Part shown: positions 24,176 through 33,148 of the stretch, piece after piece
Layout: the number at the start of each line of letters is the position of its first letter
How positions within the stretch are numbered: the stretch's first letter is position 1
Origin: Streptomyces sp. 11x1
GTDB taxonomy: Bacteria > Actinomycetota > Actinomycetes > Streptomycetales > Streptomycetaceae
Length of the DNA: 64,000 bases
Reading direction: 5' to 3'
NCBI RefSeq assembly: GCF_032598905.1
Contig: NZ_CP122458.1
Coordinates: 8,581,001 to 8,645,000, forward strand
The notes under the pieces: model-generated
What the model saw: the letters and a program-made list of their open reading frames with translations, nothing else
Database searches by the model: none
What the model was told of the DNA's origin: nothing
Made by a program: the position numbers and the translations under genes

Positions 24176-24231
24176 GGCCAGGAACGGTCTGGGGGCGGCC
24201 AGGACGGCCTCAGGTCAGGAACGCGGCCTGA
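24159..24231 (+). repeat. 17-bp direct repeat spanning two convergent stop codons
   Basis: TCAGGAACGCGGCCTGA occurs at 24159-24175 (the last codons of the lipase) and at 24215-24231 (the last codons of the kinase, opposite strand). Each copy has TCAGG/CCTGA ends that can pair. Confidence 0.75.
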
Positions 24232-25942
24232 CGGCCCCGTTCAGGGCTCCGGCCTCGGCGTCGTAGTCGGCGTCGGAGTCGCTGTAGCCGTCCGGGTTCT
24301 CCGAGTCGTCGGAGGGGGAGGTCCCGCCCGTGGTCGGGGCCTCCGACTCGCACGTCACCGAGAACGCGACCTTGTTCGACTCCGTCTTCACCGGACCGCG
24401 CACCTCGACGCCGATCTCGTCCGAGTGGCTCGCGTTCGTCGAGACGACGACCCGGTCCTGCTTGGTCTTCCCGCCGCCGGACGCGAACGACAGGGTCTTC
24501 CAACCCTCGTCCTCCACCTCGCCGCTCCTCGCCACCCACCGGTAGTCGACGTCCACGGGGACGCTGCCCACGGTGAACGTCGCCGTGAAGGTGGGCGCGT
24601 CGGCGTCCTGCGGCGGACAGGTGCCGGAGTAGTCGGTGTTCACGCCCTCGACGGTCACCTCGACCGACTGCGCGGGCGGCCTGGTGGTCGGCTTGTCCTC
24701 GGTGGGCGTGTCCGAGGGCGATTCGTCGGCGCTCGTCTCGTCGCCCCCGCCGGGCTCCTCGCCCGTACCGCCGTCGTCCGTCTGGTCGTTGGTGCCGCCC
24801 ACCGTGCCCGCCCCGTTGGTCGGACTGCCGTCCTTCCCGCCGTCGTCCCGGTTGACCAGCGCGTACGTCAGGCCGGCGATGGCGAAGGCGATCGCCGCGA
24901 TCCCCGCCACCAGGAAGACGAGGGCCCGGCGGTTGCGGTCCGGCTCGCGGGCGGGCACCGGGGAGGGGTGGGTGGCGGCCGGGGTGGGGTGCGGCGGGGT
25001 CGGCGGCCCGTACCGGTTCGAGTCCGGTTCCGTGTTCGTGCTCGCGCCCGCGACCGGGAAGGCGGCCACCGTGGGGCTGTACGGAGTCGTCGCGTCCGTG
25101 TGCGGGGTGCCTCCGGCGCCGATGATCCGCAGGTCCCGCTCGGCCTGCTCGGCGGAGATCCGTTCGGCCGGATCCTTTCGCAGCAGCCCCTCGATCACCG
25201 GAGCCAGCGGCCCGGCCCGGCGCGGCGGCGGAAGCTCCTCGTCGACGACCGCGCGCAGGGTGCTCAGCGGAGTGTTCTGCCGGAACGGCGAGTTGCCCTC
25301 GACCGCCGCGTACAGCAGCACCCCGAGCGACCACAGGTCCGACTCGGGGCCGAACGCCCGGCCGAGCGCCCGCTCGGGGGCGAGGAACTCCGGGGAACCG
25401 ATGACCTCACCGGTCATGGTCAGCGCGGAGCTGCCCTCGACCGTGGCGATGCCGAAGTCGGTGAGCACGACCCGGTTGTCGTTGGAGATGAGCACGTTGG
25501 CCGGTTTCACGTCACGGTGCAGCACCCCGGCCTCGTGCGCGGCGCGCAGCGCGGACAGCACCTCGGCGCCGATGTGAGCGGCGCGCTGCGGGGACAGAGG
25601 CCCCTCGCCGTCCAGGAGGTCGGCGAGCGACAGACCGCGCACCAGCTCCATCACGATCCACGGGCGGCCGTCCTCCATCGCCACGTCGTACACCGTGACG
25701 ACATTGCGGTTGGCGACCCGGGCAGCCGCCCACGCCTCCCGCTCCAGACGGGCGTACATCCGCTCGACGTCGGAGACCGCGATACCGCCCGGCGCCCGCA
25801 CCTCCTTGACGGCGACCTCACGGTGCAGCACCTCGTCGCGGGCCCGCCACACGGTTCCCATGCCGCCCTCGCCCAGCGGGGTCAGCAGCCGGTAGCGGCC
25901 CGCGATCACCCGTTCACCGCCCGGTTCTTCGGACACGGCCAT
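24215..25942 (-). CDS. receptor-like Ser/Thr protein kinase (PknB type)
   Basis: 575-residue membrane kinase. The cytoplasmic kinase domain (about 16-270) is complete: glycine loop LGEGGMGTVW, Lys46 in VAVKEV, catalytic HRDVKPAN (Asp145), DFG (Asp163) and SPEFLAPER. A Pro/Thr-rich juxtamembrane stretch leads to one TM helix (341-363), then an extracellular Gly/Thr/Asp-rich linker and a C-terminal beta-rich domain with two cysteines (SGTCPP and SVTCES) but no PASTA repeats. The ligand is unknown. The extreme C-terminus is encoded within a short repeat shared with the lipase gene. Confidence 0.93.
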   Translation of the reverse strand: MAVSEEPGGERVIAGRYRLLTPLGEGGMGTVWRARDEVLHREVAVKEVRAPGGIAVSDVERMYARLEREAWAAARVANRNVVTVYDVAMEDGRPWIVMELVRGLSLADLLDGEGPLSPQRAAHIGAEVLSALRAAHEAGVLHRDVKPANVLISNDNRVVLTDFGIATVEGSSALTMTGEVIGSPEFLAPERALGRAFGPESDLWSLGVLLYAAVEGNSPFRQNTPLSTLRAVVDEELPPPRRAGPLAPVIEGLLRKDPAERISAEQAERDLRIIGAGGTPHTDATTPYSPTVAAFPVAGASTNTEPDSNRYGPPTPPHPTPAATHPSPVPAREPDRNRRALVFLVAGIAAIAFAIAGLTYALVNRDDGGKDGSPTNGAGTVGGTNDQTDDGGTGEEPGGGDETSADESPSDTPTEDKPTTRPPAQSVEVTVEGVNTDYSGTCPPQDADAPTFTATFTVGSVPVDVDYRWVARSGEVEDEGWKTLSFASGGGKTKQDRVVVSTNASHSDEIGVEVRGPVKTESNKVAFSVTCESEAPTTGGTSPSDDSENPDGYSDSDADYDAEAGALNGAVRPRS

Positions 25943-26014: not shown

Positions 26015-27838
26015 TCAGCCGAGTGCGGATGTTGCCCCCCTGAACACCAGAACGGCCCCGAGCGTGACGACCAGCAGAGCCGACGCCAGCGGTACGGTCC
26101 TGCGCACCAGCGCGGCCGTCGGCCCGCCGAGCCGGCCCTCGCCCCGGTCCATCACCCGTGTCACCCAGCCGCCCGCCTTCACGACGGCGTAGCCGGCCGC
26201 GGTCAGCGTGAGCGCGAGGCCGATGCCGTACGCCAGCACGAGCAGCAGTCCGAACCACGCCTTCCCCAGTGCCGCCGCGCCGACCAGGACGACCACGGCG
26301 GACGGGCTCGGCACCATGCCGCCCGCGAAACCGAGCAGGATCGTGCCGCGCAGGGTGGGCGCGGTGGGGTGGGTGTGGGTGAAGCCGCCGTGGGTGTGCG
26401 TGATTCCGCCGCCGAAGAGGGAGCGCTTCTCTTGGGGCGCGTCGTCGTGGCTGTGCGGGTGGCCGTGGTGGTCATGGCCGTGGTCGTGCTTGTCGCCGTG
26501 TTGGTGGTCGTGGGTGTGGGGGGTGACCGGCGCGTGGGTGTGCGTGTGGGGCTCGCCGTGCGCGTGGGCGTGTGAAGGAGCGGCCTGGGCGAGTACGAGC
26601 TCCCGGCTGGGCTCCGGCTCGTGGTCGTGCGCGTGGGTGTGCCCGTGCGTGTGGCTGTGGTCGTGGCCATGGTCGTGCTCGTGGTTGTGGTCATCGCCGT
26701 GGCCGTGGCCGTGGCCGTGGCCGTGGCCGTGATCGTGATCGTGATCGTGCCCATGGTCGTGTGAGTGCCCGTGGCCGTGCCCGTGTGCGCTCGCGTGGGT
26801 GAGGGCCAGTTTGCGGTTGAGCCATGCGCGGCGGGCGAGGGCGACGCCCGCGCCCATCACGAACAGGCCGCTGGCGATGCCCAGCCAGGTGATCACGGAC
26901 GGGGCGGCGGCGGAACCGGCCAGGACGAGCAGGCCGAGGGCGACGACGCCCAGGGTGTGGGTGACCGTCACGGACGCGGCCATGGGCAGCACGTCCCGCA
27001 TCCGGGCCCGGTCGCGCGCGGCGGCCGTCGCGGCCATCAGGGTCTTGCCGTGACCCGGGCCGAGCGCGTGCATGGCGCCCAGGAACAGGGCGATGCCGAA
27101 GGCCAGGGCGCCGAACCCGAAGGTGAGGTCCTGGCTGGAGACCAGGTCGTCGAGGGCCCTGGTCCAGCGGTCAGCGCCGCGCGGGAGGATCGAGGCGCCG
27201 GGCGCGGCGCTCTCCCGCTCGGCCAGCGCGGGACCGCCCGGCCGCACCTGGAGCGAGGCCGTGGCCGTGTCCTCCGGCGACTGCAACAACTCCGCGGGGT
27301 AGTCGGTGAGTCGCTTCGACACCGACTCCTCGGGCACATCCGACCCGGCCAGGGTCATCCGGTCGCCCTGGGCGGTGACCTCGCGCCAGCCGGGGCCGGA
27401 GTCCACGGCGGCGTGAAAGCGTACGTCGGCGGCCCGGTCCGGCAGTGCGGCCGTCAGCCGGCACTCCACCCGCAGCGTCTTCAGCCCCGCCTGGCCCGGC
27501 CGCTCCTCGGCGCGGCTCGACTTCAGGGCCACCTCGGCGGCGCTCCCGTCGACGGTGACCTCACTGCCCTCGGCGGCCTTCTCGCACCGCTCCCGGGCCC
27601 AACTCTCCACGCCCTGCCGCTTGATGGCGGGTGCGGCCTGGGTCGCCGGGATCTCCGCCAGGTCCTCGACGTGGAGGATCCTCAGCTGCTCTGGGGCGGC
27701 GACCAGGCCGTCGTACCGGTTGACGGTGAAGTTGCCGAGCGGGTGGGCGCTCGCGGCTTCGGCGGGGCCGAGGACGAGCGCGCAGGCGGCCGCCAGGACC
27801 GCCGTGCCGGAGGCGAACACGCGCCGGGGAGAAATCAC
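26015..27838 (-). CDS. NicO-family nickel/cobalt transporter with giant histidine-rich loop
   Basis: 607-residue membrane protein. A signal-like N-terminus and a long extracytoplasmic domain (about 30-230) precede a NicO/RcnA-type core: MHALGPGHGKTLM, SVTVTHTLGVVALGLL, then a loop of mostly His-Gly/His-Asp pairs (about 346-490), then FAGGMVPSPSAVVVLVGA and the last helices. The His loop probably binds Ni/Co/Zn. The GTG start overlaps the TPR stop (GTGA), so the gene is co-translated with the DUF4331-TPR operon. Direction (efflux as in RcnA, or uptake) is not decidable. The repetitive DNA makes the loop prone to length change. Confidence 0.88.
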   Translation of the reverse strand: MISPRRVFASGTAVLAAACALVLGPAEAASAHPLGNFTVNRYDGLVAAPEQLRILHVEDLAEIPATQAAPAIKRQGVESWARERCEKAAEGSEVTVDGSAAEVALKSSRAEERPGQAGLKTLRVECRLTAALPDRAADVRFHAAVDSGPGWREVTAQGDRMTLAGSDVPEESVSKRLTDYPAELLQSPEDTATASLQVRPGGPALAERESAAPGASILPRGADRWTRALDDLVSSQDLTFGFGALAFGIALFLGAMHALGPGHGKTLMAATAAARDRARMRDVLPMAASVTVTHTLGVVALGLLVLAGSAAAPSVITWLGIASGLFVMGAGVALARRAWLNRKLALTHASAHGHGHGHSHDHGHDHDHDHGHGHGHGHGHGDDHNHEHDHGHDHSHTHGHTHAHDHEPEPSRELVLAQAAPSHAHAHGEPHTHTHAPVTPHTHDHQHGDKHDHGHDHHGHPHSHDDAPQEKRSLFGGGITHTHGGFTHTHPTAPTLRGTILLGFAGGMVPSPSAVVVLVGAAALGKAWFGLLLVLAYGIGLALTLTAAGYAVVKAGGWVTRVMDRGEGRLGGPTAALVRRTVPLASALLVVTLGAVLVFRGATSALG

Positions 27839-29844
27839 TTGGCGGTCTCCAGAGCCTGCAGTGCCTTCAGGGTCTCGCGGGCCTCGGCCGCGCCGAGCGG
27901 CGAGAAGCCGGCGTTGAGGTCGAGCGCCGCCTTCAGGGTCGTGCGGGCGTCCTTCTTGTCGCCGGCCGCGTACTCGACCATGCCACGGTGGTACAGGAAG
28001 GTCGCGTCCTTGTAGCCGGTGGCGGTGGCCCGGCGCGCGTACGGCAGGGCCTCCTCGTCGCGGCCGTTGACGTGCAGCGCCCAGGCGAGGGCGTCCGCCG
28101 TGTGCACCGTCTCGCGGCGCTTGAACTCGGCCTCCGCGGCCCGCAGCGCGGCCTTGGTGTCGCCGTGGTCGGCGGCGGCCAGCGCGGTGTCGAGGTCGGC
28201 GTTGACGCCGTTGGCGCGAGCGATGGCGGTGTAGGCGTCCACCAGCGCGTACTGGTCGTTCGCCTTGGTCCTGTCGCCCTCGGCCTCGTACAGCTCGCCG
28301 AGTACGACGAGCGGTCCCGGCAGCGGGTAGGAGGAGACCACCTGCTCCAGGCCGCGGATCGCCTCCGCGCCGTCGCCGCTCGCGGCCTGGGCGCGGGCGC
28401 GGCCCTCAAGGGCGGGGAGGTAGGTGTCGTCGGCGCCGAGGGCGCGGGCGTAGTGGTCGAGCGCGGTCCTGTGATCGCCCTGCTTCCAGGCGAGTTGGCC
28501 GAGCTGGGTGGCCACGTAGGCGATGTCGCCGCGGGTGGCCGCCGAGTCCAGGGCCTGCTCCAGCACGCGTCGGGCGGTCTTCACGTCGCCGCGCAGCTCG
28601 TACACGTAGGCGTAGCGGGTGAAGACGGGGATGCCGGGGCGGCGGGTGTCGGCGAGGCGGACCGCCGCCAACGCGTCGTCGTAGCGGCCGAGTTCGACGA
28701 GGGCGTCGACGCGGCTGCACAGCGCCCGCTCGCTGTACGGGTTCTCCTTCAACGCCCGGTCGGCGAACCGCAGGGCGTCCTCGAACTCGTGGCGGGCGGC
28801 GGCGAGGGCGGCGAGGCCCGCGAGCGCCGGGTCGTTGTCCGGGCGCAGCTCCAGCGAGCGCTGCAGGGCCTTCTCGGCCTGCGGGTAGCGGGAGGGGTCG
28901 CCCTTGACCCGGGCCTGCTCGACATAGGCGAGGCCGAGCGTGGACCAGGAGCCGAAGTCCTTGGGCTGTTCCTTGAGATGGGCCTGGAGCCGTTCGACCG
29001 CCGTGTCGAGGTCACCGCCGGCGAGCTGGGCCGCGGACACACCCGGCGAGGAGGACATGGCCACCGTCCGGTCGTCGTCCCCGGCGCCGAGCGCCACCGC
29101 GAACCCGGTGAACGCGACGGCCAGCGCCACCGCACAAGCTCCGACCCGCACCAGCCGCCGCCCGCCCGACTCGGCCACGGGCCTCCGCCCGGACCGGGAC
29201 GCCGACCCACGACCGGCCACCGGCGCGGGAGCCGGGGCCCCTTCGCCTTGTGACGCGGCCCCGGACACGGGCATCGCGTCTGAGCCGGCGTCCAGGTCGA
29301 CGCCGGGCGCGGAACCGGTCTCGGTGTCGGGCGTGGGTCTGCTTTCGGTGTCGGACGCGGAGCCGGCCTTCGCGTCGGGTCCGGCGTCGGACGCTGATCC
29401 GGACCCGGTGCCAGAGTCGGCGCCGGAGTCGGCCTCCGTGTCCGACACGAAGCGGGACGCGGGTTCGGCCTCGGCATCGGGCGTGGACCCGGCCTCGGCC
29501 GCTGCGCCGGACGCCGGGCTCGGCTCCGCAGCGGAAGCCGAGTCGGGGCGAGCGTCGGCCCCGGACCCGGTCGCCGGACTGGGCCGGGACCCGCCGTCCG
29601 ATGCCGGACCGGGCACCGGGGCAGACCCGGTGTCGGCCCCTCGCTCCGCCACCGTGGCGGACCCGGCGTCGGTCGGCCGAGCGGATGCTGCGGAGCCGGG
29701 GTCCGTCGGGCGAGCGGATTCGGTGGGCCCGGTGCGCGTCGGCCCGGTGGATGTGGTGAGTTGGGGTCGGTCCTGGTCGGGAGCCCCCCCGTCGGGACGC
29801 GGACGCCCGCTTCGGGGCGCGCTGTCGGTCGTACGCGGGGACAT
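27835..29844 (-). CDS. TPR-repeat membrane protein with long disordered N-terminus
   Basis: 669-residue protein. Residues 1 to about 215 are low-complexity Ser/Ala/Pro/Asp/Gly sequence, one TM helix follows (about 232-252, VRVGACAVALAVAFTGFAVALG), and the rest is a chain of tetratricopeptide repeats (for example DFGSWSTLGLAYVEQARVKG, DPALAGLAALAAARHEFEDA, ALDHYARALGADDTYLPALE) ending LKALQALETAK. The TPR part is probably extracytoplasmic, acting as a scaffold for the DUF4331 protein and the transporter (inference). The ATG has GAGGAGAGG. It is the middle gene of three in the SigK-facing operon. Confidence 0.83.
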   Translation of the reverse strand: MSPRTTDSAPRSGRPRPDGGAPDQDRPQLTTSTGPTRTGPTESARPTDPGSAASARPTDAGSATVAERGADTGSAPVPGPASDGGSRPSPATGSGADARPDSASAAEPSPASGAAAEAGSTPDAEAEPASRFVSDTEADSGADSGTGSGSASDAGPDAKAGSASDTESRPTPDTETGSAPGVDLDAGSDAMPVSGAASQGEGAPAPAPVAGRGSASRSGRRPVAESGGRRLVRVGACAVALAVAFTGFAVALGAGDDDRTVAMSSSPGVSAAQLAGGDLDTAVERLQAHLKEQPKDFGSWSTLGLAYVEQARVKGDPSRYPQAEKALQRSLELRPDNDPALAGLAALAAARHEFEDALRFADRALKENPYSERALCSRVDALVELGRYDDALAAVRLADTRRPGIPVFTRYAYVYELRGDVKTARRVLEQALDSAATRGDIAYVATQLGQLAWKQGDHRTALDHYARALGADDTYLPALEGRARAQAASGDGAEAIRGLEQVVSSYPLPGPLVVLGELYEAEGDRTKANDQYALVDAYTAIARANGVNADLDTALAAADHGDTKAALRAAEAEFKRRETVHTADALAWALHVNGRDEEALPYARRATATGYKDATFLYHRGMVEYAAGDKKDARTTLKAALDLNAGFSPLGAAEARETLKALQALETAK

Positions 29845-29983
29845 GCCCTCTCCTCAACATCCTTGCCGAGTGCGGTGTTCGTGGTCGTGGGGCGCGGCCC
29901 GCGCCGTGGGGGATGGATACGAGCGGGCCGCGCCGGTCACGTCGGCCGGGCCCCATGGGGAAGGGCCCGGACGAGGGGATCTG

Positions 29984-31507
29984 CTAGTAGTACGCGCGGT
30001 CGTTGCGACGGCGCCACCACAGCAGACCCGAGCCGATCAGCAGGACACCGGCCGCGCCGGCGCCGGCCGAGGCGGCGATCAGCGTGGTGTCGTCGGTGCC
30101 GCTCTCTACACTGCCGCCCAGTGCGCTGCGGACGCTGTTCGTGGTGTTGCCCTTGACCGTCTTGCCCCGCGACCCGGCCGTCGGCAGACCGACGTAGGGG
30201 AAGGACTTGCCGAACTTCTTGTCGTTCTTGTCGACCGCGTCACCCAGGTCGTTCGGCGCGTCGACCAGTTCGCCCTCGACGACCTGGAGTGCGATGTCGA
30301 TCACGTCGTCGGTGAGCCGGCGCCCGTTCGGGAAGCCCTGGTTGTCACCGTCCAGCACGCCCAGCCGCTTCGGCTTCTTGGTGGGCGCGATGGAGGTGTT
30401 GAGCCGCAGCTGCTCCGAAGGCGTCACGTGCGGGGGCTGGTTGAGCCCCTCGACGCCCTTGAGGAAGACGTCGACGAGGTCGTTGCGCGGCTCCTTGGGC
30501 GCCGGGATCTTGTAGATCGCCTCGATGAGCTTGGGCAGCTCGGGCTCGGTGACGTTCTTCAGGAACTGCCCGTCGTCCACCGGCGAGGACGCGTTGAACT
30601 TGTCCTTGTCGCCGATGGGGTTGACGACCTCGTTCACCAGCGGCATCCCGAGGCGCGAGACCTGGTGGTACCGGCCGTCGGCGCCCTGGCGCTGCGTGGT
30701 GGACCAGATGCCGACGATCGGCTGGTCCTTGGACTGGACGAGCGCCTCGCTCGGGATCTGCAGGGCGATCGAGTTGACGTTGTAGCCCTTCAGCGTGTCC
30801 CGCCCGACCTCGGAGAGGTCGCCGCCGTACAGCAGGTCGAAGACGCGCAGGTCCAGGAAGAACGGGTCGTCGGCCTGCCCGGCGTACGTGGTCACTCCGC
30901 TCGCCGTCTTGTAGACGGCCTCGTCGCGCAGCTTCTTGAAGTCCGGCATCGACGCCTTGCCGACGTTCGACGGCGCCACCCACACGTCGTCCGCGAGCTT
31001 CGTCTTGGAGACCGCCCGACGGTTCTTCAGCTTGATGAGGTCGATGTCGTACGTCTGCGTGATGTTCAGGTCCGGGTCGTCGAGGCTCTCCACGACGCCC
31101 GTGTTGTACAGGAAGGTCCTGTCGTTCTTCGTCTTCGTCTTGAACGTGTACCGGAAGATCAGGTCTTCCTGGGCGTCGCCGTCCTGGTCGACGCGAATGT
31201 CGTACTCCGCGTCCTCGGAGAAGGTGAAGAAGTTCGGGCCGCCCGCGGGCTCCTCGAAGGGGATCCAGTTCGCGATCACCGTCGTCGTGTCCGGCTTGTC
31301 GGGGCTGACGAACGCGTACACGTCGGTGTTGTCGAACTGGGGCTCCCCCGAGATGAGCGGGGCCTCCCGGTGGCTGGAGGCGGAAGCCGCCCCCGGCTCC
31401 AGCACGGTGACTCCGGCGGCCGCGAGTCCTCCGGCGGCCAGCGAAGCACAGATGAGGGACGCGATGCTCCGCCGTCCCGCGCCGCTCCTGGAAGTAGGTG
31501 TCGTCAT
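29984..31507 (-). CDS. secreted, membrane-anchored DUF4331 protein
   Basis: 507-residue envelope protein. The signal peptide runs to about residue 44 and ends before SSHREAPLI, the signature opening of DUF4331 proteins. The body carries DNTDVYAFVSPD, DPDLNITQTYDIDLIKL and GYNVNSIALQIPSEAL in family order. A C-terminal helix (GAGAAGVLLIGSGLLWW) with an RRRND tail anchors it. No catalytic activity is known for the family. The start at 31507 was chosen over one 21 bases upstream because GAGGAC lies at reasonable spacing. It is the first gene of the DUF4331-TPR-NicO operon, behind a SigK-type promoter. Confidence 0.9.
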   Translation of the reverse strand: MTTPTSRSGAGRRSIASLICASLAAGGLAAAGVTVLEPGAASASSHREAPLISGEPQFDNTDVYAFVSPDKPDTTTVIANWIPFEEPAGGPNFFTFSEDAEYDIRVDQDGDAQEDLIFRYTFKTKTKNDRTFLYNTGVVESLDDPDLNITQTYDIDLIKLKNRRAVSKTKLADDVWVAPSNVGKASMPDFKKLRDEAVYKTASGVTTYAGQADDPFFLDLRVFDLLYGGDLSEVGRDTLKGYNVNSIALQIPSEALVQSKDQPIVGIWSTTQRQGADGRYHQVSRLGMPLVNEVVNPIGDKDKFNASSPVDDGQFLKNVTEPELPKLIEAIYKIPAPKEPRNDLVDVFLKGVEGLNQPPHVTPSEQLRLNTSIAPTKKPKRLGVLDGDNQGFPNGRRLTDDVIDIALQVVEGELVDAPNDLGDAVDKNDKKFGKSFPYVGLPTAGSRGKTVKGNTTNSVRSALGGSVESGTDDTTLIAASAGAGAAGVLLIGSGLLWWRRRNDRAYY

Positions 31508-31545
31508 GCCGTCCGTCCTCTGTCCCAACTTGCCTGACGAACGCC

Positions 31546-31572
31546 ATTCGGAGCGGTCGGCAGGGTGGATTG
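31546..31572 (-). promoter_or_regulatory. ECF (SigK-type) promoter for the DUF4331 operon
   Basis: On the minus strand CAATCC-N15-CCGAAT, about 40-65 bases before the DUF4331 ATG. The same elements at the same spacing precede the divergent sigma gene. They resemble the mycobacterial SigK consensus as I recall it (CCATCC/CCGAAT). Confidence 0.65.
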
Positions 31573-31636
31573 GTCGAATCCCAAACGTTCTTACGGCGCG
31601 TTTGAAAGGTTGTTTCAGCGGAGAGCGGGATTTGTT

Positions 31637-31675
31637 GATCCGGATCTCCTCCGGATCCGTAACCCCATCCGGAGG
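31637..31675 (+). repeat. overlapping TCCGGA dyads upstream of the sigma gene
   Basis: Two mutually exclusive perfect inverted repeats: GATCCGGA-N5-TCCGGATC (31637-31657) and CCTCCGGAT-N10-ATCCGGAGG (31648-31675). They share the middle TCCGGAT and the second overlaps the proposed -35. They could be protein-binding sites or, if transcribed from further upstream, an RNA switch hiding the GGAGG. Confidence 0.6.
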
Positions 31676-31691
31676 TGGGTTGGTTGCGAAT
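31665..31691 (+). promoter_or_regulatory. ECF (SigK-type) autoregulatory promoter
   Basis: CCATCC-N15-GCGAAT, the same architecture and spacing as the divergent DUF4331 promoter. It predicts transcription from about 31698 and therefore favours the downstream GTG as the sigma start. Confidence 0.6.
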
Positions 31692-31740
31692 GCCTTACGC
31701 GCGAGGATGGCCGTGCTCGGCCGGAGGCGAGGGGGAGCGA

Positions 31741-32283
31741 GTGGAGGCGGACAGGTTGCTGGTCCGGGTGGCCGGGGGCGACCAACGGGCGTTCGAGGAG
31801 TTGTACGCCCTGGTGTCCGGCCCGGTGTTCGGGCTGGTGCGCCGGGTCGTACGGGACCCCGCGCAGTCGGAGGAGGTGGCCCAGGAGGTGCTGCTCGAAC
31901 TCTGGCGTTCCGCGGGCCGGTTCGACCCGGGGCGGGGCAGTGCGATGTCCTGGATACTCACCCTCGCGCACCGTCGCGCGGTGGACCGGGTGCGCAGCGC
32001 CCGCGCCGCCACCGAGCGCGAGCAGCGCGAGGGACGGCGCAACCACCACACCGCCTTCGACCAGGTCGCCGAGGAGGTCGAGGCCGGCCTCGAACGCCAG
32101 TGGGTGCGCCACTGCCTGGAGAAGCTCACCACGCTCCAGCGCGAGTCCGTCACCCTCGCCTACTACGACGGCTACACCTACCGTGAAGTGGCCGAGCGGC
32201 TCTCCCTGCCGCTCGGGACGGTCAAGACCCGTATGCGCGACGGACTCACACGGCTGCGCGAATGCCTGGGAGGAGTCGCATGA
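31741..32283 (+). CDS. sigK: ECF sigma factor, SigK/ECF19-like
   Basis: 180-residue (from GTG) extracytoplasmic-function sigma factor. Region 2 is seen in GDQRAFEELYALVSGPVFGLVRRVVRD, AQEVLLELWRSAGRFDPGRGSAMSWILTLAHRRAVDRVR, and region 4 in LQRESVTLAYYDGYTYREVAERLSLPLGTVKTRMRDGL. GTG 31741 was chosen because the proposed promoter would start transcription near 31698; longer in-frame starts exist at 31675 (GTG) and 31690 (ATG, with GGAGG 14 bases upstream). It is followed by a 13-codon mini-ORF and a zinc anti-sigma gene. The SigK label rests on similarity of the protein and of the promoter elements. Confidence 0.87.
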   Translation: MEADRLLVRVAGGDQRAFEELYALVSGPVFGLVRRVVRDPAQSEEVAQEVLLELWRSAGRFDPGRGSAMSWILTLAHRRAVDRVRSARAATEREQREGRRNHHTAFDQVAEEVEAGLERQWVRHCLEKLTTLQRESVTLAYYDGYTYREVAERLSLPLGTVKTRMRDGLTRLRECLGGVA

Positions 32284-32321
32284 GCGCCCTGTACGGCCGG
32301 CCCGGGGGAGGTGCCGAGTGA
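32280..32321 (+). CDS. 13-residue mini-ORF linking sigma and anti-sigma genes
   Basis: ATG overlaps the sigma stop as ATGA and the TGA overlaps the anti-sigma start as GTGA. GGGAGGAG stands a few bases before the ATG. Encoded peptide MSALYGRPGGGAE. It may simply carry ribosomes from the sigma gene to the anti-sigma gene; a functional peptide is speculative. Confidence 0.45.
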   Translation: MSALYGRPGGGAE

Positions 32322-33148
32322 GCCTGTTCCGCCGCGAGGACCTCCACTCGCTCGCCGCTCCCTACGCGCTGGACGCCCTGGAGCCCGACGAACGGCGCCG
32401 CTTCGAGCAGCATCTGGAGAGCTGCGACCGCTGTCCGGCCGAGGTGCGCGCCCTGTCCGAGGACGCGGTCCGGCTCGCCTGGTCGACGGCCGCGCCGGCC
32501 CCCGCCGCGATGCGCGACCGGGTCTTCGCCGCCGTACGCAACACACCTCAGGAGAGCGGCGCGCCCCAGGAGAACCAGTCCTGGAGCGCCCAGCCGCCGC
32601 GGTCCCAGCATCTGCCGCGGCATGTGTGGGGGACCGAGCCGCCGCCGAGGTCGCGCGCCCGTGCGCCCCGGTTGCGCTCTTGGCTCGTCCCGCTGTCCAC
32701 CGTCACGGCGGCCGCCGCGCTCGTGGTGGCCTCCCTCTTCGCCGTCCAGGCCGACCGCAGCCGCGACCAACTGGCCACCGAGCGCGCGCAGGCGAGTGAG
32801 ATCGCCCACGTTCTCACCGCGCCGGACGCCCGTGCGACCAGCGACCGGGACGCGGAGGGCCACAGAATCGGAGTGATCGCTTCTGCGGAGGAGGGGAGCG
32901 CGATCGTGACCCTCAGCGGATTCGAGGACCTCCCGAAGAACCGGGTGCACCAGCTCTGGCTCATGCGCCCCGATGTGCAACCACGCTCCCTGGGTCTCTT
33001 CGACGGCGACACGCCCTTGGTCACGAGCGGAATGAACACCGACGCGACGTCACTCGCCGTGACCGTCGAACCCGACGGGGGGTCACCGCAGCCCACCAGC
33101 CAGCCAGTTGTCCAACTCGCCCTGGAATCGGTCGGATTCGGAGAGTAA
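32318..33148 (+). CDS. zinc-type anti-sigma factor, RskA-like
   Basis: 276-residue single-pass membrane anti-sigma factor. The N-terminal domain has HLESCDRC with His32-x3-Cys36-x2-Cys39, the ZAS motif, in an ASD fold that clamps the sigma factor. A Pro/Arg-rich linker, one TM helix (about 122-143, LVPLSTVTAAAALVVASLF) and an extracytoplasmic RskA-type domain (IVTLSGFEDLPKNRVHQLWLM) follow. The GTG start has GGGGGAGG upstream and overlaps the mini-ORF stop. Family precedent (mycobacterial RskA) implies release of the sigma factor by regulated proteolysis. Confidence 0.9.
   Translation: MSLFRREDLHSLAAPYALDALEPDERRRFEQHLESCDRCPAEVRALSEDAVRLAWSTAAPAPAAMRDRVFAAVRNTPQESGAPQENQSWSAQPPRSQHLPRHVWGTEPPPRSRARAPRLRSWLVPLSTVTAAAALVVASLFAVQADRSRDQLATERAQASEIAHVLTAPDARATSDRDAEGHRIGVIASAEEGSAIVTLSGFEDLPKNRVHQLWLMRPDVQPRSLGLFDGDTPLVTSGMNTDATSLAVTVEPDGGSPQPTSQPVVQLALESVGFGE

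Follow-up and report, generated by a model that had tools for sequence, protein, structure and literature searches.

Which genes does the SigK/RskA system of Streptomyces sp. 11x1 control, and what kind of output do they provide? The question is raised by a divergent locus within a 64,000-nt stretch of its genome (NZ_CP122458.1, positions 8,581,001 to 8,645,000; hereafter the window, in whose numbering local coordinates are given), where sigK and rskA, coding for an extracytoplasmic function (ECF) sigma factor and an anti-sigma factor, lie back to back with genes for a DUF4331 protein, a tetratricopeptide repeat (TPR) protein and a NicO-like transporter. We consider it likely that this system governs a regulon of three units read from the pattern CMATCC-N15-SCGAAT, with a probable metal-handling envelope operon as its main output. 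The predicted promoters and the predicted regulon are well supported by site conservation, which also speaks for the preliminary description of the locus as a sigma-controlled envelope operon with shared SigK-type promoters.

Two sites matching the pattern exactly lie between the divergent genes: CAATCC-N15-CCGAAT before the DUF4331 operon (31546..31572, reverse strand) and CCATCC-N15-GCGAAT before sigK-rskA (31665..31691, forward strand). They agree with each other in both hexamers and in spacing, and are the only matches without a mismatch in the window. The preliminary description had placed both elements and their 15-nt spacer correctly. With up to two mismatches, the window holds 11 matches, no more than the 11.9 expected by chance. 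When the exact pattern was searched for with spacers of 13–19 nt in the 10.7-Mb genome of this strain, nine sites were found (control pattern: 0); four of them have the N15 spacing, two of which are the divergon pair, and five have other spacers (L002, L004, L005, L006 and one more). Behind one genomic site (L003, 4970722) no convincing gene start was found by open reading frames only. Allowing one mismatch gave 108 sites against 28 control sites, and the relaxed pattern was rejected as a definition of the regulon on this account. A chance origin of the divergon pair was likewise rejected, given the exactness of the sites, their rarity in the genome and their conservation relative to shuffled sequences. 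We call the sites SigK-type after what we take to be the SigK consensus (Veyrier 2008); the accessible part of PMC4821874 yielded no published SigK consensus.

Conservation was scored at orthologous loci found with a DUF4331 profile search, from which the best 80 of at least 577 relatives, mostly Streptomyces, were named; 63 of the 80 have a divergent sigK. Spacers of 15 and 16 nt were both allowed, and altered sites with N16 and CCGTAT enter the counts as one or two mismatches. On the DUF4331 side, 43 of the 63 loci carry an exact site, 18 a site with one mismatch and two a site with two mismatches (61/63 within one mismatch), compared with 0.06%, 0.9% and 12.6%, respectively, in first-order shuffles of the DUF4331 region. 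The DUF4331 promoter has an extended form, CCAATCC-N12-GCTCCGAAT, with the remaining spacer variable. On the sigK side, 34 sites are exact, seven have one mismatch and two have two (43 within two mismatches). The conservation anticipated in the preliminary description is therefore present on the DUF4331 side and partial on the sigK side.

Further conserved elements surround the two sites. The -35 element of the DUF4331 promoter lies within an inverted repeat, GGATT-GGTCG-AATCC (31567-31581), also found in the orthologue consensus, where an A/T tract follows it. Upstream of the sigK promoter, many orthologues (L129-L202) carry two conserved blocks, CCGCGTTTT and GATCCGTA, separated by 18 nt, of which the window has GATCCGTA alone (31654..31661, forward strand). 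The two-block element is retained in 12 of the 24 loci that have no N15 sigK-side site within one mismatch, and might serve as an operator or as an additional promoter of sigK.

The exact N15 form of the pattern was scanned in 15 Streptomyces genomes with this type of SigK, which gave 62 sites, two to eight in each (control: 2). Twelve are sigK sites, 15 are DUF4331 sites (two in G011) and 13 have a third recurrent form, so that about 40 of the 62 fall on three units. Ten of the 13 third-form sites were checked against genes by coordinates, and the other three (G239, G218 and G435) are assigned by site form alone. In the strain studied here, the third site (G000:C1:1153628-1153654) lies 98 nt before the gene for a 221-residue zinc-finger anti-sigma-like protein. 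This protein stays below the cut-offs of NF052375 (43.2 bits; cut-off 100) and zf-HC2 (19.5 bits; cut-off 22.2), and two of its orthologues score 27.1 and 30.7 bits with zf-HC2. Among 20 orthologues, our strain included, the third site is exact in 15, has one mismatch in two and is absent from the three most distant. The anti-sigma gene stands two genes after an ECF sigma gene in 7/7 loci examined by sequence likeness, and in our strain that sigma factor scores 241.4 bits with NF007227 (cut-off 202). SigK is thus predicted to raise the anti-sigma factor of another sigma factor, a partnership suggested by gene position. The preliminary description had SigK raise itself and the facing operon; both sites stand, and the remote anti-sigma gene extends the regulon by at least one further conserved unit.

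Nearer the start of the anti-sigma gene (G000:C1:1153628-1154414; L001, L269 and L289) runs another conserved stretch, TGAGTGATTC...CGTACC or close to it, which is present as well in the three orthologues without a SigK-type site and is perhaps a promoter of the neighboring ECF sigma factor. A fourth recurrent exact match, CCATCCTTCTGCAC..., with a near-fixed spacer (G007:C1:6534885, G185:C1:1664193, G011:C1:427563 and G382:C1:8771663), perhaps lies inside conserved coding sequence.

The DUF4331 site is also found where sigK does not adjoin. Seventeen of the 80 named loci have no divergent sigK; six of them carry an exact site, one a site with one mismatch, six a site with two, and four have none. 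SigK is encoded elsewhere in 14 of these 17 genomes, and the three genomes without any SigK are all among the four loci without a site. A further 22 DUF4331 starts, chosen since the listing showed no orthologous sigK adjoining and with no sigK within 700 nt upstream in any of them, comprise eight exact sites, three with one mismatch, two with two mismatches and nine without a site; two of these nine share contigs with L183 and L184. Second DUF4331 copies in four genomes (G011, G452, G399 and G509) keep the exact site with no sigK in the upstream 700 nt, and the site is kept in other lineages without a divergent sigK as well. In a sample of 246 Streptomyces genomes, searched at E 1e-120 for DUF4331 and E 1e-35 for SigK, DUF4331 was found in 127 and SigK in 203. 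SigK is present in 126 of the 127 genomes that bear DUF4331, G416 being the sole exception, and in 77 of the 119 that do not (Fisher p 2e-14, ignoring descent).

What the operon does is a separate question. The DUF4331 protein (29984..31507, reverse strand; 507 residues) matches PF14224 with 541.8 bits (cut-off 27), and hydropathy places a hydrophobic N-terminal segment at about residues 18-36 and a C-terminal transmembrane (TM) segment at about 476-494. Its SHREAPL motif is invariant in the aligned sets, and its predicted fold gave no trustworthy structural match. The TPR protein (27835..29844, reverse strand; 669 residues) has a low-complexity N-terminus, a single TM segment at about 234-252 by hydropathy, and then the repeats. 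These two genes are as previously described. The third gene (26015..27838, reverse strand; 607 residues) codes for the NicO-like transporter, which consists of a signal peptide, an HPLGNF motif, an exported domain, a TM core with HALxPGHGKT and a His loop. The TPR gene follows the DUF4331 gene, and the NicO-like gene lies downstream of the TPR gene, each in 70 of the 71 named loci where 5 kb or more was available. The latter two genes overlap by GTGA, in keeping with the earlier view of the genes as translationally close; this does not extend to the DUF4331-TPR junction, where the genes are spaced apart. Next in order in 61 of the same 71 loci is a Ser/Thr protein kinase gene (24215..25942, reverse strand; Pkinase 162.9 bits), which starts 72 nt after the NicO-like gene and encodes an exported domain and one TM segment at about 340-358 by hydropathy. 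The kinase is syntenic, and its membership in the operon is uncertain.

For the exported domain of the NicO-like protein, a fold like that of the Cu-bound Ang-1 and Zn-bound ZrgA (PA4063) domains is predicted, the structural matches being a HupE/UreJ-2 protein with Cu-bound Ang-1 (PDB 9gce) and the ZrgA/PA4063 zinc proteins (8f1b and 7amx). This predicted fold supports the metal link, and on that model the module most likely handles a transition metal at the cell surface, be it copper, zinc or nickel/cobalt; the metal module of the preliminary description is upheld in this qualified form. The likeness to Ang-1/ZrgA proteins is one of predicted fold, with no sequence match to the NicO-like protein, and sequence searches of the PDB gave nothing usable for DUF4331, the NicO-like protein, its profile or its N-terminal domain. 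HPLGNF is present in an open frame in 72 of 73 named loci and in 11 of 12 distant ones, which is suggestive only as regards metal binding. The His loop, put earlier at roughly 145 residues, is real in this strain, with 50 His in residues 346-495; across 26 aligned orthologues, though, its length differs by several-fold, and the long form is not conserved.

Several observations weigh against our proposal. No sigK-side site is recognizable in 20 of the 63 loci with a divergent sigK. An altered DUF4331 site (CAATCC-N16-CCGTAT or close, with CAAACC in L174 and L200) occurs in 15 of the 57 loci scored, and 13 of these 15 also have no sigK-side site. Twenty-two of the 62 exact sites in the regulon scan remain unassigned. 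The four site-less loci among those without a divergent sigK form a single DUF4331 clade, and one of its members, L184, has SigK elsewhere in its genome. No sense-strand site, exact or with one mismatch, precedes 18 DUF4331 paralogues of about 55% identity, the best such matches having two mismatches (in four). The 139-nt gap between the DUF4331 and TPR genes leaves room for a separate promoter. As for the metal link, the model of the NicO-like protein has a pTM of 0.46 and its match to the metal-binding domains is at most 11% identical, His56 is kept in two of 11 distant sequences, and the protein falls short of both family cut-offs (PF03824: 23.7 bits, cut-off 27.7, over residues 248-406, a match that extends into the His loop; NCBIfam RcnA-type NF007454: 117.7 bits, cut-off 195).

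Two explanations related to these points were tried and set aside. A changed SigK recognition was rejected as the cause of the CCGTAT-type sites, since no SigK residue separates the 15 loci of this type from the 42 of CCGAAT type at the 70% level. The tracking of site loss with SigK loss among the 17 loci (13/14 vs. 0/3, p 0.006) was judged weak, because six of the 13 sites are two-mismatch matches (chance 12.6% each) and the losses fall in one clade, so that the co-loss of site and SigK is one event. Among the paralogues, L249, L255, L256 and L259 have antisense sites that face away from DUF4331 and lie over 500 nt upstream of it; two are exact and the other two have one mismatch.

The module could instead be a conventional RcnA-type nickel/cobalt exporter that has accessory proteins and is only incidentally under SigK control. 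The NicO-like protein shares with RcnA/NicO exporters the TM core with HALxPGHGKT and the His-rich loop, its best Pfam match is NicO, as the preliminary description had named it, and its best NCBIfam match is of RcnA type. Yet both cut-offs are missed, and the protein differs from these exporters in its long exported N-terminal HPLGNF domain, predicted to resemble copper- and zinc-binding proteins, and in its predicted control by a sigma factor through a conserved SigK-type site; moreover, to our knowledge, DUF4331 and TPR proteins are no part of RcnA systems. We hold this explanation to be rather unlikely. It is also unlikely, in our estimate, that the operon handles something other than a metal (e.g., heme or a surface glycan), with the NicO-like protein as its exporter.

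We also considered the possibility that a SigK promoter exists on the DUF4331 side only, and that the match before sigK combines a GGAGG ribosome-binding site with codons for an N-terminal extension of SigK from a TTG or ATG at 31684-31690. The reading frame is open to 31675, where the preliminary description had started the gene, GGAGGTG lies within an unusually conserved spacer, and the site is missing from the 20 loci counted above. However, in-frame stops occur between the -10 element and the start in L136, L164 and L169, six site-bearing loci have a frame-shifting distance (L136, L140, L141, L147, L164 and L192) with the site still within one mismatch, and a Shine-Dalgarno-like GAGGGGG stands before GTG 31741. 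For these reasons sigK most likely starts at GTG 31741 rather than at 31675 (31741..32283, forward strand; 180 residues), and the extension was rejected on the stops and frame shifts in the orthologues. A Shine-Dalgarno sequence would in addition leave CCATCC unexplained, and the two sites are alike in hexamers and spacing, which makes a one-sided promoter improbable. That the sites serve another ECF sigma factor with the same consensus, the neighboring SigK having other targets, is very improbable: a sigma query gives 114 candidate stretches in the genome of our strain, so many sigma factors exist, L184 has SigK and no site, and sites are assigned to a sigma factor by sequence alone, but the site precedes sigK itself, recurs at other SigK cassettes and sits in genomes that nearly all encode SigK.

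The sigma/anti-sigma pair itself is of the SigK type that had been described. SigK scores 298.8 bits with NCBIfam NF007228 (cut-off 226; scored from 31675), and RskA, encoded 34 nt downstream (32318..33148, forward strand; 276 residues), has one TM segment at about 123-141 by hydropathy and matches RskA_C (110 bits; cut-off 29.4), RskA_N (35.8; 27) and zf-HC2 (26.9; 22.2). In a tree of 83 SigK-like proteins, for which close orthologues were thinned beforehand, those Streptomyces SigKs that adjoin DUF4331 make up a single clade (36 rows; support 100/99), and the other Streptomyces SigKs fall outside it. Among nine other SigK loci, with one neighbor each identified by Pfam, fasciclin stands beside SigK at L092, L095, L096 and L104, and DUF1365 does so at L108; L093 and L107 have a siderophore-interacting protein and an rRNA methylase as neighbors. 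Exact sites surround sigK at L091, L092, L095, L096, L104 and L106, and in L108, from another family, CCATCC-N15-CCGAAT precedes a DUF1365-sigK operon. Sulfite-oxidase-type (molybdopterin) proteins adjoin SigK at L091 and L106, with SigK-type sites around sigK.

MPT83 is a fasciclin protein. In Streptomyces coelicolor, an unrelated sigma factor resembling SigB also goes by the name SigK and is not to be confused with the present protein. The accessible part of PMC7509140 states that SigK sites are highly conserved across Actinobacteria, that the mpt83-sigK-rskA cassette of mycobacteria and other Actinobacteria, including its site, is found even in Yersinia, and that SigK (ECF18/19) has a cysteine pair, C133 and C183. 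The cysteines of our SigK, Cys125 and Cys175, have the same 50-residue spacing, by which, and not by alignment, the pairs were matched. Insofar as that part of the source describes it, the locus resembles the cassette in this pair, in a SigK above the NCBI cut-off with RskA adjoining, and in a SigK-type site before both the target and the sigma operon. It differs in that the divergent genes are DUF4331-TPR-NicO with no fasciclin gene at this locus, in that the DUF4331-adjacent Streptomyces SigKs form their own clade, and in that its predicted targets include a second anti-sigma gene. Limited literature searches found nothing on DUF4331, nothing joining ECF19 with fasciclin, and only work on M. 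kansasii joining SigK, fasciclin, Streptomyces and anti-sigma factors. SigK/RskA regulons as such are known; the output of this one is new and probably metal-related.

The preliminary description tied the operon to this divergon; DUF4331-TPR-NicO also occurs elsewhere in the phylum. DUF4331 is present in 49 of the 296 genomes of a phylum-wide sample. Of 20 DUF4331 loci outside the close group, 17 have a same-strand TPR gene nearby and 12 have a NicO-like gene. In seven of the 20, a SigK-like ECF sigma gene lies within the fetched stretch, in one case at 26% identity; it is directly beside DUF4331 in L109, L115 and L122. Six of seven distant ECF sigma factors tested match the NCBI SigK model best, all below its cut-off, and they form separate lineages in the tree. 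A site scan of the 28 distinct loci in a set of 30, duplicates being dropped, found the -AAT form upstream of DUF4331 in none, CMATCC-N16-SCGAAC in five and CMATCC-N15-SCGAAC in two, with a background of one each in the remaining 0.6 Mb, both strands counted; the final C of this variant was picked after seeing the phylum data, the five N16 loci come from a single family (f18, which contributes eight loci to the scan), and for two of the seven sites the upstream distance exceeds 200 nt. These sites suggest SigK-like control of the module in one other family and hint at it elsewhere in the phylum. In L208 (Actinoallomurus spadix), sigK-rskA lies on the same strand downstream of the NicO-like gene, not divergent. 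A broader reading takes SigK/RskA as originally a surface-metal (Cu or Zn) stress system of Actinomycetota, with DUF4331-TPR-NicO as its old output, fasciclin as an alternative one, and, in Streptomyces, a second ECF sigma factor dampened through induction of its anti-sigma factor. We regard it as quite unlikely, the more so as the N16 cases of the SCGAAC variant all come from one family.

Returning to the three-unit regulon, we infer that SigK uses these sites, that its release depends on RskA, that the module has a role with metals and that there is cross-talk to a second sigma factor. RskA, a membrane anti-sigma factor, would hold SigK until it is itself inactivated by an envelope signal, and free SigK would start transcription at CMATCC-N15-SCGAAT. 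In this Streptomyces clade it would drive its own sigK-rskA operon, as a positive loop that is unrecognizable in about one-third of loci; divergently, the DUF4331-TPR-NicO(-kinase) operon; and, at a remote position, the zinc-finger anti-sigma gene that lies beside a further ECF sigma gene. The output module would comprise a DUF4331 protein that is exported and anchored in the membrane, a TPR scaffold, likewise in the membrane, and a transporter whose exported domain is of metal-binding type.

The activating signal of SigK is still unknown according to the accessible part of PMC7509140. A tight regulon of about three promoters in a tractable Streptomyces, whose main output includes a probable metal transporter, makes this question directly testable, and the surface-metal stress reading, if true, would supply a candidate for the signal. 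DUF4331, a widespread family of unknown function, gains a regulatory context, and a new link from a sigma factor to an anti-sigma factor is predicted.

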